The translations under genes were made by a program, and so were the position numbers. Positions 21,633 to 25,871 of a stretch of 37,439 nt of DNA are shown piece after piece. Under the pieces are notes generated by a model. The model saw nothing but the letters and a program-made list of their open reading frames with translations, was not told where the DNA came from and did not search any database. Numbering within the stretch: position 1 is the stretch's first letter; every line of letters starts with the position of its first letter. The DNA is from Anaerofustis stercorihominis. GTDB taxonomy: Bacteria; Bacillota; Clostridia; Eubacteriales; Anaerofustaceae. The DNA is taken from assembly GCA_015058295.1 (NCBI GenBank), contig SVCP01000013.1, forward strand, positions 1 to 37,439, in the 5' to 3' direction.

Positions 21633-21814
21633 GTGGCTTGCACATATTCTGTATATGTATGTGAGTATTACATATGCCGCATCTGTCCCCCACCCTGCGG
21701 TGCGCAGGAATCAACAATAAAAAAAACAAAACTCCGGAATACACAATCTTAAATCGTATCCGTATTCGCACCGCTCCCGCCCGATACCTCAGGCAAGCCG
21801 GGAATTATCATAAA

Positions 21815-21859
21815 AAGCGATACCCGTTCTTCTGACAGGGCATCGCTTCTTTTATTTTT
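21815..21859 (+). terminator. Bidirectional terminator-like hairpin upstream of the ABC exporter operon
   Basis: AAGCGAT (21815-21821) pairs with ATCGCTT (21842-21848), and CCC (21823-21825) pairs with GGG (21838-21840). A T-rich tract follows on the plus strand and five Ts follow on the minus strand. It is 180 bases after the ProX-like gene, and its T tract touches the direct repeat. It may insulate the exporter promoter from read-through. Confidence 0.65.
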
Positions 21860-21893
21860 GACCGATGAGACACCAAAAACGACCGAACAGACA
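21860..21893 (+). promoter_or_regulatory. Candidate LytTR operator: 21-base-period direct repeat
   Basis: GACCGAtgAGACA (21860-21872) recurs as GACCGAacAGACA (21881-21893), matching at 11 of 13 positions, with starts exactly 21 bases apart. LytTR-domain regulators bind direct repeats two helical turns apart just upstream of the -35 region, and a LytTR gene is in the operon downstream. The second copy ends six bases before the -35 position (21900-21905). The match in geometry is seen; binding is inferred. Confidence 0.6.
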
Positions 21894-21899
21894 AAAATC

Positions 21900-21928
21900 A
21901 ACATTCCTCCCTTTTTATCTGCTATGAT
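21900..21928 (+). promoter_or_regulatory. Candidate promoter of the ABC exporter-LytTR operon
   Basis: TATGAT (21923-21928) is a good -10 box, while the hexamer 17 bases upstream (AACATT) does not resemble -35 consensus. Weak -35 boxes are expected for promoters that depend on an activator, which fits the direct repeat just upstream. The start site would be near 21935. Confidence 0.5.
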
Positions 21929-21970
21929 AGTAACGGGTACCCACAAATAAAATCAAAACGGAGGATATAT

Positions 21971-22699
21971 ATGCCGGTGATAAAAACAACAGCGCTCAGC
22001 AAAAAGTACAAAGATCTTACCGCTGTGGATAAACTTGAACTGCAAATCCGGCAAGGTGAACTGTTTTCACTGCTTGGAACCAATGGGGCAGGAAAAAGCA
22101 CGGTTATCAAAATGCTTTCATGCCTGACAAAGCCAACATACGGAGACGCTATGGTCGGTGGCTACAGCATTACAAAAGAACCGGAACAGGTAAAACGACT
22201 GATCGGTGTATCGCCGCAGGAAAGTGCCGTTGCACCGAATCTTTCCGTAAAGGAAAACCTGGAACTTATATGCGGAATCCACGGATTTTCAACGGAAAGA
22301 ACAAACACAAAGATTACAGAGCTTTCAGAGAAATTTACCCTTGACGAGGTTCTTCATCGAAAAGCAGGAAAACTCTCCGGCGGATGGCAGCGCAGAGTAA
22401 GTATTGCCATGGCACTGATCAGTGAACCACAGATTTTATTTCTTGACGAACCGACTCTCGGTCTTGATGTTATTGCAAGACACAGTCTGTGGGATGTTAT
22501 CCGATCTTTAAAAGGAGAAGTGACGATCATCCTGACAACACATTACATGGAAGAAGCAGAAGCTCTTTCCGACAGGATTGGTATTATGAAAAGCGGCAGG
22601 CTTCTTGCTGTCGGAACACCGGAAGAACTGAAACTAAAAGCCGGAACAAATGATTTTGAAACTGCTTTTGTTGTCATAGTGAAGGAGGAAGCTGTATGA
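21971..22699 (+). CDS. ABC transporter ATP-binding protein, DrrA/NatA type
   Basis: This is the ATPase of an ABC-2 type exporter. The 242-residue protein has Walker A GTNGAGKST (about 36-44), Q-loop SPQESAVAP, signature LSGGWQRRVS and Walker B ILFLDEPTLGLDV, then the H-loop TTHYMEEAEALSDRI typical of drug or peptide exporters. The ATG follows GGAGG. Its stop overlaps the permease start by four bases (ATGA). The substrate is unknown; a drug, lantibiotic or Na+ is possible. Confidence 0.93.
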   Translation: MPVIKTTALSKKYKDLTAVDKLELQIRQGELFSLLGTNGAGKSTVIKMLSCLTKPTYGDAMVGGYSITKEPEQVKRLIGVSPQESAVAPNLSVKENLELICGIHGFSTERTNTKITELSEKFTLDEVLHRKAGKLSGGWQRRVSIAMALISEPQILFLDEPTLGLDVIARHSLWDVIRSLKGEVTIILTTHYMEEAEALSDRIGIMKSGRLLAVGTPEELKLKAGTNDFETAFVVIVKEEAV

Positions 22700-23427
22700 G
22701 AATGATGACTTTTGCCAAAAGGTGCACAAAAGAGATCCTGCGGGATCCGATAAATCTTGCTTTCGGAACAGGCTTTCCGTTGGTTCTGCTTTTGCTTCTT
22801 AGCAGTCTGCAGGCAAACATCCCTGTGAATCTGTTTGAAATCGACACTCTGACTCCGGGAATTACCGTATTCGGCCTGTCGTTCATGACACTGTTTTCAG
22901 CAACTCTGATTGCAAAAGACCGTGAAAGTGCATTCCTGCAAAGACTATACACAACACCTCTTACGGGATCTGATTTTATCATAGGGTATATGCTGCCCAT
23001 GTTGCCCGTGGCACTCGGGCAGGCAGCTGTATGCTATCTGTTCGCTATTCCTCTTGGACTGACTTTCGGCATAAATATTATTTATGCTATAATCGGAATC
23101 ATACCTATGGCTGTTTTCAATATTGCGCTGGGACTTCTGTGCGGAAGTGTTCTGAACGTGAAACAGGTCGGAGGTGTCTGCGGAGCACTGCTGACAAATC
23201 TTTCCGCATGGCTTTCGGGTGTATGGTTTGATCTGAAACTTGTGGGGGGATTTTTCGAGAAGATCGCAAATATTCTGCCGTTTGTTCATGCGGCAGAACT
23301 GGAAAAAGCATTATTTATGGGGAATTTCGAGGTTGCGGCATCACACATTCTTCCTGTTATTTTCTACAGCGTAACAATAACGGTGGCGGCGATACTTATT
23401 TTCCTCAGGCAAATGAAAAGACAGTAA
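22696..23427 (+). CDS. ABC-2 type transporter permease
   Basis: This 243-residue membrane protein is the partner of the ATPase just upstream. About six hydrophobic segments are visible, with the ABC-2 pattern in the middle (FGLSFMTLFSATLIAKDRES, LQRLYTTPLTGSDFIIGYML) and a final helix before the basic end LRQMKRQ. The periplasm-side amphipathic region LSAWLSGVWFDLKLVG resembles ABC-2 exporters. It overlaps the ATPase gene by four bases and precedes the LytTR gene by 12. Confidence 0.9.
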   Translation: MRMMTFAKRCTKEILRDPINLAFGTGFPLVLLLLLSSLQANIPVNLFEIDTLTPGITVFGLSFMTLFSATLIAKDRESAFLQRLYTTPLTGSDFIIGYMLPMLPVALGQAAVCYLFAIPLGLTFGINIIYAIIGIIPMAVFNIALGLLCGSVLNVKQVGGVCGALLTNLSAWLSGVWFDLKLVGGFFEKIANILPFVHAAELEKALFMGNFEVAASHILPVIFYSVTITVAAILIFLRQMKRQ

Positions 23428-23439
23428 GGGGATCAGTAC

Positions 23440-23883
23440 ATGAAATATAAACTGATTATTGACAAAGATGCGGAAGAAGAGATCATTGCCATAGTCAATG
23501 CACCGTCAGCCCTTACACAGCAGATAGAAAATCTTGTCAACAACTATTCCGGGAATAATTACATCATGGGATACAGAGATGATGAAATGCGGAAACTGAA
23601 ATTTGCGGAAATCGAATGCATTACAGTTATTAACAGAAAAGTAATCGCCATTGATACCCATGGCGAGCACTTTTCCCTCAGGGACAGACTGCGTGATCTT
23701 GAGAATATTTTGCCCTCTTATTTTATCCGGCTCAATAAATCTACTATTGCCAATGAACATTGTATTCTGAGATTCGATGCCGTGTTCAACGGCAGTGTGG
23801 ACGCTGTGTTTCAGTGCGGCTATCGGGAATATGTTTCCCGACGCTGCTTTTCGGAGATAAAGAGGAGGTATGAAGGAATATGA
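23440..23883 (+). CDS. LytTR DNA-binding domain transcriptional regulator
   Basis: This 147-residue protein lacks a receiver domain. The N-terminal 40 residues are variable, and the LytTR domain spans about residues 50-145 (LKFAEIECITVINRKVIAID, YFIRLNKSTIAN, YVSRRCFSEIK). LytTR proteins bind paired direct repeats near promoters. Here the gene overlaps a DUF3021 membrane protein by four bases (ATGA), a common pairing in which the membrane protein restrains the regulator. A 21-base-period repeat upstream of the operon is a likely autoregulatory target. Confidence 0.92.
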   Translation: MKYKLIIDKDAEEEIIAIVNAPSALTQQIENLVNNYSGNNYIMGYRDDEMRKLKFAEIECITVINRKVIAIDTHGEHFSLRDRLRDLENILPSYFIRLNKSTIANEHCILRFDAVFNGSVDAVFQCGYREYVSRRCFSEIKRRYEGI

Positions 23884-24323
23884 AAAAGTTTGTTACGGAA
23901 TTCTTACGCCGTGGCTTTACAGCCTGCGGCTTAGGCCCCATTGTTCTGGCAATACTATATCTGATCTTGCAGCATCAGGCGCGTATACAGACACTGACAG
24001 TCAACCAGGTCTGTATCGGAATATTTTCATTATCAGCACTGGCTTTTATTGCAGGCGGCATGAATATCATCTATCAGGTTGAACGACTGCCCCTTATGGC
24101 GGCAATTCTCATCCACGGCAGTGTTTTATATTTCAGCTATCTGGGTACTTACCTGCTGAATGGATGGCTTCAGTGGGGAATTGCTCCGGTTTCGTTTTTT
24201 TCCTGTATTTTTGTTATCGGATATCTGATCATATGGTCAGTCATTTATTCCATAACCTGGAAAAATACTGAAAAGATCAATGAAAAATTAAAACAAAAAC
24301 AACAATCTGAAGAAGAAAAATAA
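23880..24323 (+). CDS. DUF3021 family membrane protein, probable partner of the LytTR regulator
   Basis: The 147-residue protein has four predicted membrane helices (about residues 14-31, 44-60, 72-90 and 103-124) and a charged Lys/Glu-rich C-terminal tail of about 25 residues in the cytoplasm. Size and layout fit DUF3021. By analogy with LytTR regulatory systems of streptococci, where a membrane partner inhibits the DNA-binding protein, it may sequester the upstream regulator until a membrane signal arrives. That role is inferred from the neighbourhood. Confidence 0.85.
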   Translation: MKKFVTEFLRRGFTACGLGPIVLAILYLILQHQARIQTLTVNQVCIGIFSLSALAFIAGGMNIIYQVERLPLMAAILIHGSVLYFSYLGTYLLNGWLQWGIAPVSFFSCIFVIGYLIIWSVIYSITWKNTEKINEKLKQKQQSEEEK

Positions 24324-24951: not shown

Positions 24952-25239
24952 ATGGCTATAAACGAAATAATGGCCGCTCTTGCGGACGAAACAAGAAGAA
25001 ACATCCTGACAATACTGCAGGAAGGAAAAATATCGTCGGGCGAGCTGGCAAGACAACTGAATATAACTCCCCAGGCGCTGTCATATCATCTGGCAAAACT
25101 GAAAAATGCGGATCTTATTTACGAAACAAAATACAAAAATTTCATATATTATGAACCGAATCTGTCGATTCTCGACGAAATCATTATGTGGATAACAAAC
25201 CTCAGGGAGGCAGGACAATGCGAAACAGAAAGATACTGA
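24952..25239 (+). CDS. ArsR/SdpR-type winged-helix transcriptional repressor
   Basis: This 95-residue protein is a single winged helix-turn-helix domain: IMAALADETRRNILTILQEG, then LARQLNITPQALSYHLAKLK as the recognition helix and DLIYETKYKNFIYYEPN as the wing. There are no cysteines in metal-sensor positions of helix 3, so it fits the SdpR autorepressor subgroup rather than a metal sensor. It overlaps the SdpI-like gene by 22 bases, matching the sdpRI operon of Bacillus subtilis. Confidence 0.9.
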   Translation: MAINEIMAALADETRRNILTILQEGKISSGELARQLNITPQALSYHLAKLKNADLIYETKYKNFIYYEPNLSILDEIIMWITNLREAGQCETERY

Positions 25240-25871
25240 TACTACTCATGATACTTCCCCTCGTCATAACCCTCGTGGCACTTCAGTATCTGCCAGACAG
25301 CATCCCCGCACATTACGGCTATGACAATACGGTGACACGCTGGGGAAGTAAATACGAGACACTCATTTTTCCTGCCATAACTGTCTCATTCGGGCTGTTT
25401 ATGCTCTTTATGGCAAAAGTCTCATCAAAAGATGAGAAAAACGGGCAGAACAACGAAAAAGTGTGTATTCTCACAGGCATAATGTCACTGGCAGTATTCA
25501 ATATCATGACACTGTTCTTTCTGTATGCTGCATTCAACAAAGTGGAAGACCTTTCAACTGCACCGGCAGACATAAACCGTCTGATGTTTGCATCTATCGG
25601 TATGTTAATGATAGTTATCGGAAACAAGATGCCGAAGTTGAAGATAAATTCTTTTATCGGGCTGAGAACGCCGTGGAGTATGGAAAACGAAGAATCATGG
25701 CGGCGCAGTCAGCGTTTCGGAGGAATACTGTTTATGATTACGGGTATGATTATCATAATCATCAGTATTCTGACGAAAGGTACGGAATGTATGCTTTTCT
25801 GCCTTGCGGCACTGATATTATCCGCAATAATATCCGTTTACGGAACATATAAAATATCGAAGAATATATGA
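25218..25871 (+). CDS. SdpI-like membrane protein (DUF1648 and SdpI domains)
   Basis: SdpI of B. subtilis is a membrane immunity protein for the toxin SDP and, when bound to toxin, sequesters SdpR. This 217-residue protein has the DUF1648 block LPDSIPAHYGYDNTVTRWGS and the SdpI block INSFIGLRTPWSMENEESWR, with about six hydrophobic segments. The ATG at 25218 has GGGAGG at 25205-25210; a longer upstream frame lacks a site. No sdpC, sdpA or sdpB homologue is in the window, so it may be an orphan immunity or sensor module. Confidence 0.9.
   Translation: MRNRKILILLMILPLVITLVALQYLPDSIPAHYGYDNTVTRWGSKYETLIFPAITVSFGLFMLFMAKVSSKDEKNGQNNEKVCILTGIMSLAVFNIMTLFFLYAAFNKVEDLSTAPADINRLMFASIGMLMIVIGNKMPKLKINSFIGLRTPWSMENEESWRRSQRFGGILFMITGMIIIIISILTKGTECMLFCLAALILSAIISVYGTYKISKNI

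Follow-up and report, generated by a model that had tools for sequence, protein, structure and literature searches.

The locus examined here raises the question of whether a direct repeat, noticed in raw sequence in front of an exporter operon of Anaerofustis stercorihominis, serves the LytTR regulator encoded in the same operon as the site for controlling its own genes, and how far such control would extend. The window (37,439 nucleotides, contig SVCP01000013.1 of assembly GCA_015058295.1) contains the repeat immediately upstream of four genes, encoding, in this order, an ABC exporter ATPase, a permease, a LytTR protein and a DUF3021 protein. The promoter elements and the four operon genes of the window are on the forward strand.

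The operon and its products

The first gene (21971–22699) encodes a DrrA-like ABC exporter ATPase (PF00005, ABC_tran, E 4.8e-32), and the second (22696–23427) an ABC-2 type permease (PF01061, ABC2_membrane, E 4.8e-18). As in the DrrAB-type ABC-2 exporters, the ATPase and the permease are separate proteins, and the nearest NCBIfam models are TIGR01188 (drrA) and a DrrB-family model, both under cut-off; unlike the DrrAB-type exporters, the exporter of the window carries no sign of any particular substrate. The third gene (23440–23883) encodes a LytTR regulator of 147 residues that lacks a receiver domain (PF04397, E 1.1e-14). Its LytTR domain occupies residues 49–143, Pfam finds no other domain, and it is the only LytTR protein encoded in the 1.83-Mb genome. 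The fourth gene (23880–24323) encodes a DUF3021 membrane protein (PF11457, E 1.4e-19), predicted from the S. mutans systems to inhibit the regulator. Neighboring genes of the operon either overlap by 4 bases, as do lytTR and the DUF3021 gene, or are separated by a 12-base gap.

The predicted structure of the DUF3021 protein (pLDDT 81) is all-helical and had no match among PDB structures (best E 4.1). For the LytTR protein, AlphaFold gave a poor model (pLDDT 54), which was discarded, and a sequence search of the PDB returned nothing meaningful.

A direct repeat in front of a poor -35 element

The sequence GACCGAnnAGACA is present twice in the window, at 21860–21872 and 21881–21893 (as read, GACCGATGAGACA and GACCGAACAGACA), with the starts 21 bp apart. 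Described as 9-mers, the region consists of a left half-site ACCGATGAG (21861–21869), 12 bp, a right half-site ACCGAACAG (21882–21890), 9 bp, the poor -35 element AACATT (21900–21905), 14 bp and the extended -10 element TGCTATGAT (21920–21928). The conserved block extends to 21872 on the left (ACCGATGAGACA) and to 21893 on the right. The -35 element lies 6 bp past the second 13-mer and is spaced from the repeat as in the promoters of LytTR Regulatory Systems (LRS; PMC6193735, Tables 2 and 3), and 17 bp separate it from TATGAT (21923–21928). Transcription is predicted to start near 21935.

An initial annotation, made from the sequence alone, had described a repeat with a 21-base period before an exporter-LytTR-DUF3021 operon, followed after six bases by a poor -35 and behind it by TATGAT. 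Direct reading of 21860–21935 bears out both the repeat and the promoter boxes, and the Pfam matches agree with the operon content. What had been overlooked was the TG of the extended -10, and also that the promoter spacer is complementary to the ribosome-binding site, as described below.

The repeat is not a chance occurrence. With up to three mismatches allowed, the window contained a single match to the pair, and 100 dinucleotide shuffles of it gave no match at all. In the whole genome there was one exact match, while the remaining matches all carried three mismatches and were as frequent as those of a reversed control pattern.

Conservation of the repeat in orthologous operons

Relatives of the LytTR protein were found at 55 loci among the GTDB species genomes, and at most of these loci the four genes recur in unchanged order. 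The check suggested in the initial annotation, a search for the repeat upstream of orthologous operons, covered 43 upstream regions that were fully readable, among them those of the window and of genome G001 from the same genus; 42 of the 43 keep the spacing of exactly 21 bp. In these 42 promoters CCG is invariant in both half-sites. The distance from the repeat to the -10 element is nearly fixed, CAACATTT at the -35 position is conserved in the alignment, and the TG and TAT of the extended -10 are kept in 93% and 95% of the orthologs, respectively. Conservation persists once promoters more than 90% alike are dropped, which leaves 31 loci (32 non-redundant rows in alignment A1), and it falls off upstream of the repeat block. 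The remaining region (L080), whose regulator is 57% identical, has a degenerate pair that can be discerned by eye, ACCTTTTGA-12-ACCGAAAAG.

The conserved half-site is ACCGAnnAGAC rather than GACCGAnnAGACA: in the left copy, A usually takes the place of the first G. The repeat is a strongly conserved docking site through which the LytTR regulator would almost certainly activate the exporter operon that encodes it, and the site guessed from raw sequence appears confirmed as a conserved LytTR target. The divergent half-site is now sharply defined for a subclade spread over gut Clostridia.

The repeat accompanies the regulator gene

The repeat belongs with the lytTR gene rather than with the exporter. 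Five loci (L073, L076, L077, L078 and L081) contain lytTR and the DUF3021 gene without the exporter genes, and in these the 9-12-9 pair is located immediately before lytTR. By eye the pair is clear in four of them and degenerate in L078; the 12-bp gap was recovered by a matrix scan in L076, L077 and L081.

Other LytTR-DUF3021 operons of the same order, ~30% identical, were included in the comparison. ACC-type 9-mers 12 bp apart were observed in L006, L007, L008, L014 and L023, with scores reached by none of 200 shuffles; the best-scoring gap was other than 12 bp in L011, L022 and L025. In L006 the two halves differ in type, one being of the subclade's kind and the other of the usual kind (ACCGATTAG and ACCACTTAT), and this pair ties the site of the subclade to the usual LRS site.

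Comparison with known LytTR Regulatory Systems

An LRS consists of a LytTR regulator and a downstream membrane inhibitor, which in most cases is a DUF3021 or DUF2154 protein, and the supplementary list of Zou et al. (2018) comprises more than 4600 systems (PMC6193735). The autoregulatory promoter contains a pair of 9-bp repeats, in most cases with a gap of 12 bp between them, located 4–11 bp (mostly 10) before the -35 element (PMC6193735). In S. mutans, gel shifts show binding of HdrR to repeats of the 9-12-9 type placed 8 bp ahead of the -35, mutations in the repeat abolish autoactivation of HdrRM, and the membrane proteins act as repressors. All five LRS of this species are positively autoregulated, and two of the five are linked to ABC genes (PMC6193735).

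The operon of the window shows the same features: a LytTR regulator without a receiver domain; directly 3' of it a membrane protein gene, here of the frequent DUF3021 type (E 1.4e-19, 4-base overlap); 9-bp direct repeats 12 bp apart (ACCGATGAG-12-ACCGAACAG); and a distance of 9 bp from the repeats to AACATT, within the range of the published promoters (PMC6193735, Tables 2 and 3). The half-sites themselves are divergent. Compared with the usual repeat ACCnnTTAn, which is typical but not required and from which published members also diverge (PMC6193735), they have kept ACC and the A at position 8 and have lost TT. On a matrix of published LRS repeats they score 2.6 and 0.7 bits (published mean 9.5, lowest 0.1), which places them in the low tail of the published members, and a scan with this matrix, which ranks the pair 63rd of 74,820 window positions, would by itself miss the site. 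The identity of the site therefore rests on orthology and geometry, and not on the published consensus. By its sequence the operon is an LRS member with a divergent site, in a class that has already been described. The self-activating, LytTR-controlled exporter of the initial annotation is thus supported, in that the conserved repeat follows lytTR and fits the LRS mechanism (PMC6193735), although its membership in a described class had gone unrecognized.

Among individual systems, HdrRM and BrsRM of S. mutans (PMC6193735) likewise have a receiver-less LytTR regulator followed by a small membrane protein, and a 9-12-9 bp direct repeat just 5' of a poor -35; HdrRM also has a TGnTATnnT extended -10. 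In contrast to the operon of the window, which includes exporter genes as well, both are two-gene operons, and their half-sites read ACCnnTTAn as opposed to ACCGAnnAG(AC). HdrR and BrsR, moreover, also govern bacteriocin and competence genes, whereas no second site was found in the window's genome. The pairs SMU_433/434 and SMU_1070c/1069c (S. mutans, PMC6193735), compared by organization, resemble the operon of the window in being LRS pairs cotranscribed with ABC genes with a direct repeat in front, but their repeat sequence is another one, and in SMU_1070c the gap is 11 bp.

Extent of the regulon

A promoter profile of 73 positions was searched in 24 genomes. Strong matches (E 1e-22 to 1e-11) were found in 21 of these, a single one in 20 genomes and two in G070, with a clear gap to the next match. 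The other three genomes hold distant relatives, and one of them (G090, the genome of L080) gave a weaker match (E 3.9e-5). All other matches had E >0.008, in a search whose first pass scored 150 candidates per genome and may have missed weak targets. Two genomes that had been kept out of the profile, G001 and G091 (which carries L081), were matched with E 4.4e-14 and 1.4e-11. A pattern search for extra targets gave matches near control level in most genomes.

Since the genome encodes one LytTR protein and contains one such site, the regulon is probably the exporter operon alone. No conserved neighbors, as candidates for the cargo, were found around the orthologous loci beyond the four operon genes, which makes the exporter the likely output. 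With its own operon as the only detectable target, the regulator would have the exporter as its whole output.

The two strong promoter copies in G070 (L038) are carried by contigs C97 and C189; they differ by few bases and represent either two operons or an assembly duplicate. Among the genomes searched, only G070 had two.

A terminator-like hairpin and a complementary spacer arm flanking the repeat

An intrinsic-terminator-like hairpin with a T-rich tail, GCGATACCC...GGGCATCGC (21812–21859), abuts the left half-site and was found once in its own genome. Such a hairpin adjoins the repeat in 18 of 32 loci by a strict rule, and in more by eye. The version GCGATACCC...GGGTATCGC, with variations, is present at eight operons with unrelated upstream genes. 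On account of its recurrence at operons with unrelated upstream genes and its single occurrence in the window's genome, the terminator seems to be part of a cassette.

Downstream of the repeat, a stretch of the spacer between the -35 and -10 elements, TCCTCCCTTTTTAT (21905–21918), is complementary to the ribosome-binding-site arm ATCAAAACGGAGGA (21952–21965), located 5' of the ABC gene. In the window these two arms would form only a weak hairpin: 12 of 14 positions pair, and 6 of 100 shuffled arms pair equally well. Among 33 non-redundant orthologs, arms of the same operon paired better than exchanged arms (mean -13.0 versus -10.7 kcal/mol; z -5.6, 0 of 20,000 permutations), whereas a control arm gave p 0.27; relatedness inflates these permutation tests. 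In 16 cases the arms have the form CTCCx and yGGAG, and in 13 of these the bases x and y make a Watson-Crick pair (A-T 5, G-C 5, T-A 3). In a fixed register, set by the -10 element and the ribosome-binding site, covariation is weak (z 2.4 for the best register of the arms and 3.3 for another register, against a permutation maximum of 4.3). The complementary stretch shifts register between orthologs, and the case for covariation therefore depends on the tests without a fixed register. Neither G001, of the same genus, nor several other orthologs have the hairpin. Mismatches in the arms comprise 27 G-U and 6 A-C; the excess of G-U was set aside as evidence for pairing on the sense strand, since base composition alone predicts it.

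Folding predicts a mean openness of the ribosome-binding site among orthologs of 0.64 in promoter-started RNA; for read-through RNA the prediction is 0.18, or 0.39 when the arm is shuffled. The respective values for the window are 0.54, 0.00 and 0.16. Because the left arm is 5' of the predicted start, the ribosome-binding site of the ABC gene would be hidden only in read-through RNA. Read-through RNA is silenced by a hidden ribosome-binding site in the Tn10/IS10 transposase gene and in some phage T4 transcripts, where the left arm of an inverted repeat is likewise contained only in transcripts started upstream. Unlike in those cases, the arm proposed here sits within the promoter, in the -35/-10 spacer, of a putatively self-activating exporter operon.

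Proposed mechanism and alternative readings

The promoter is very probably the autoregulatory promoter of an LRS with a linked ABC exporter, which binding of the LytTR protein would activate and the DUF3021 protein would inhibit. The site, its conserved spacing, the promoter geometry, the link to lytTR and the uniqueness of the site in the genome were obtained here, and we infer binding, activation and inhibition by DUF3021. Two LytTR molecules would occupy the pair of ACCGAnnAG half-sites, which share one face of the helix at a distance of two turns and lie just 5' of the poor -35, and would thereby activate the extended -10 promoter that drives the exporter, the permease, the regulator and the DUF3021 protein. 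If the S. mutans systems are a guide, the DUF3021 protein would keep the regulator inactive at the membrane until an envelope signal arrives; release of the regulator would then set off positive feedback and production of the exporter. As a secondary layer, the terminator and the spacer arm may insulate the operon, such that mainly transcripts of the LytTR-controlled promoter would be translated.

The direction of regulation is not revealed by sequence, and many small regulators repress their own genes. The LytTR protein might accordingly bind the repeat to repress its operon (negative autoregulation), in which case DUF3021 would have a different mode of action. We regard this as improbable, in view of a site located wholly 5' of its poor -35 and extended -10, which is the geometry of LRS activator sites, and of the positive autoregulation found in five of five S. 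mutans LRS (PMC6193735).

Even less credible is that the lytTR gene is nearby only incidentally and that the repeat serves another regulator, for example the ArsR-type protein (24952–25239) encoded 0.6 kb 3' of the operon: the repeat is direct and not palindromic, only the four operon genes are conserved as neighbors, and the pair accompanies lytTR even where the exporter is missing. The conserved block could also be viewed as mainly a structural element of RNA or DNA, composed of terminator and hairpin, with the direct repeat as a by-product; the covariation of the spacer and ribosome-binding-site arms and the terminator abutting the repeat would fit such an origin. The half-sites, however, sit between the terminator and the spacer arm and are conserved as direct copies, and the control arm, taken from the right half-site, showed complementarity to the ribosome-binding site not above permutation (p 0.27), which leaves this reading with hardly any probability.

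Probable horizontal spread and possible insulation of the operon

In the order to which the window belongs, just 2 of the 67 genomes have an ortholog, and these two belong to the same genus as the window. The LytTR protein is 69% identical to the same-genus copy (L003) and 83% identical to that of Coprococcus comes (L030), a genome outside that order's list. Genes for relaxase, ParB and RepA_N proteins are located near some of the orthologous operons (in the flanks of L042, L047, L050, L052, L056 and L062), which suggests carriage on integrative or plasmid-like elements. No copies were found in viral contigs, and no close copies in plasmids. Given the patchy distribution, the identity of 83% versus 69% and the mobile-element genes nearby, the simplest reading of these sequences is that the operon moves horizontally as a cassette.

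In combination with the elements flanking the repeat, this leads to a more tentative proposal, to which we give slightly less than even credence: that the operon works as a self-contained switch that spreads horizontally and has two layers of insulation, its own terminator and the inverted repeat of spacer and ribosome-binding site. Only RNA from the LytTR-controlled promoter would then be translatable, and a membrane signal, rather than chance read-through after insertion, would start the positive feedback. The new detail is that a terminator together with an RNA hairpin seems to protect this travelling operon against stray transcription; if the insulation holds, a positive-feedback cassette can move between genomes untripped by neighboring transcription.

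Two further gene groups were observed 3' of the operons. In the window, an ArsR-type regulator gene overlaps one for an SdpI/DUF1648 membrane protein (24952–25871), an SdpRI-like immunity pair 0.6 kb 3' of the operon. In L028–L030, the operon is adjoined by a second ABC exporter, encoded on the opposite strand ~1.5 to 2.2 kb 3' of the lytTR match and accompanied by a TetR-like gene and one for an ABC-2-like permease.
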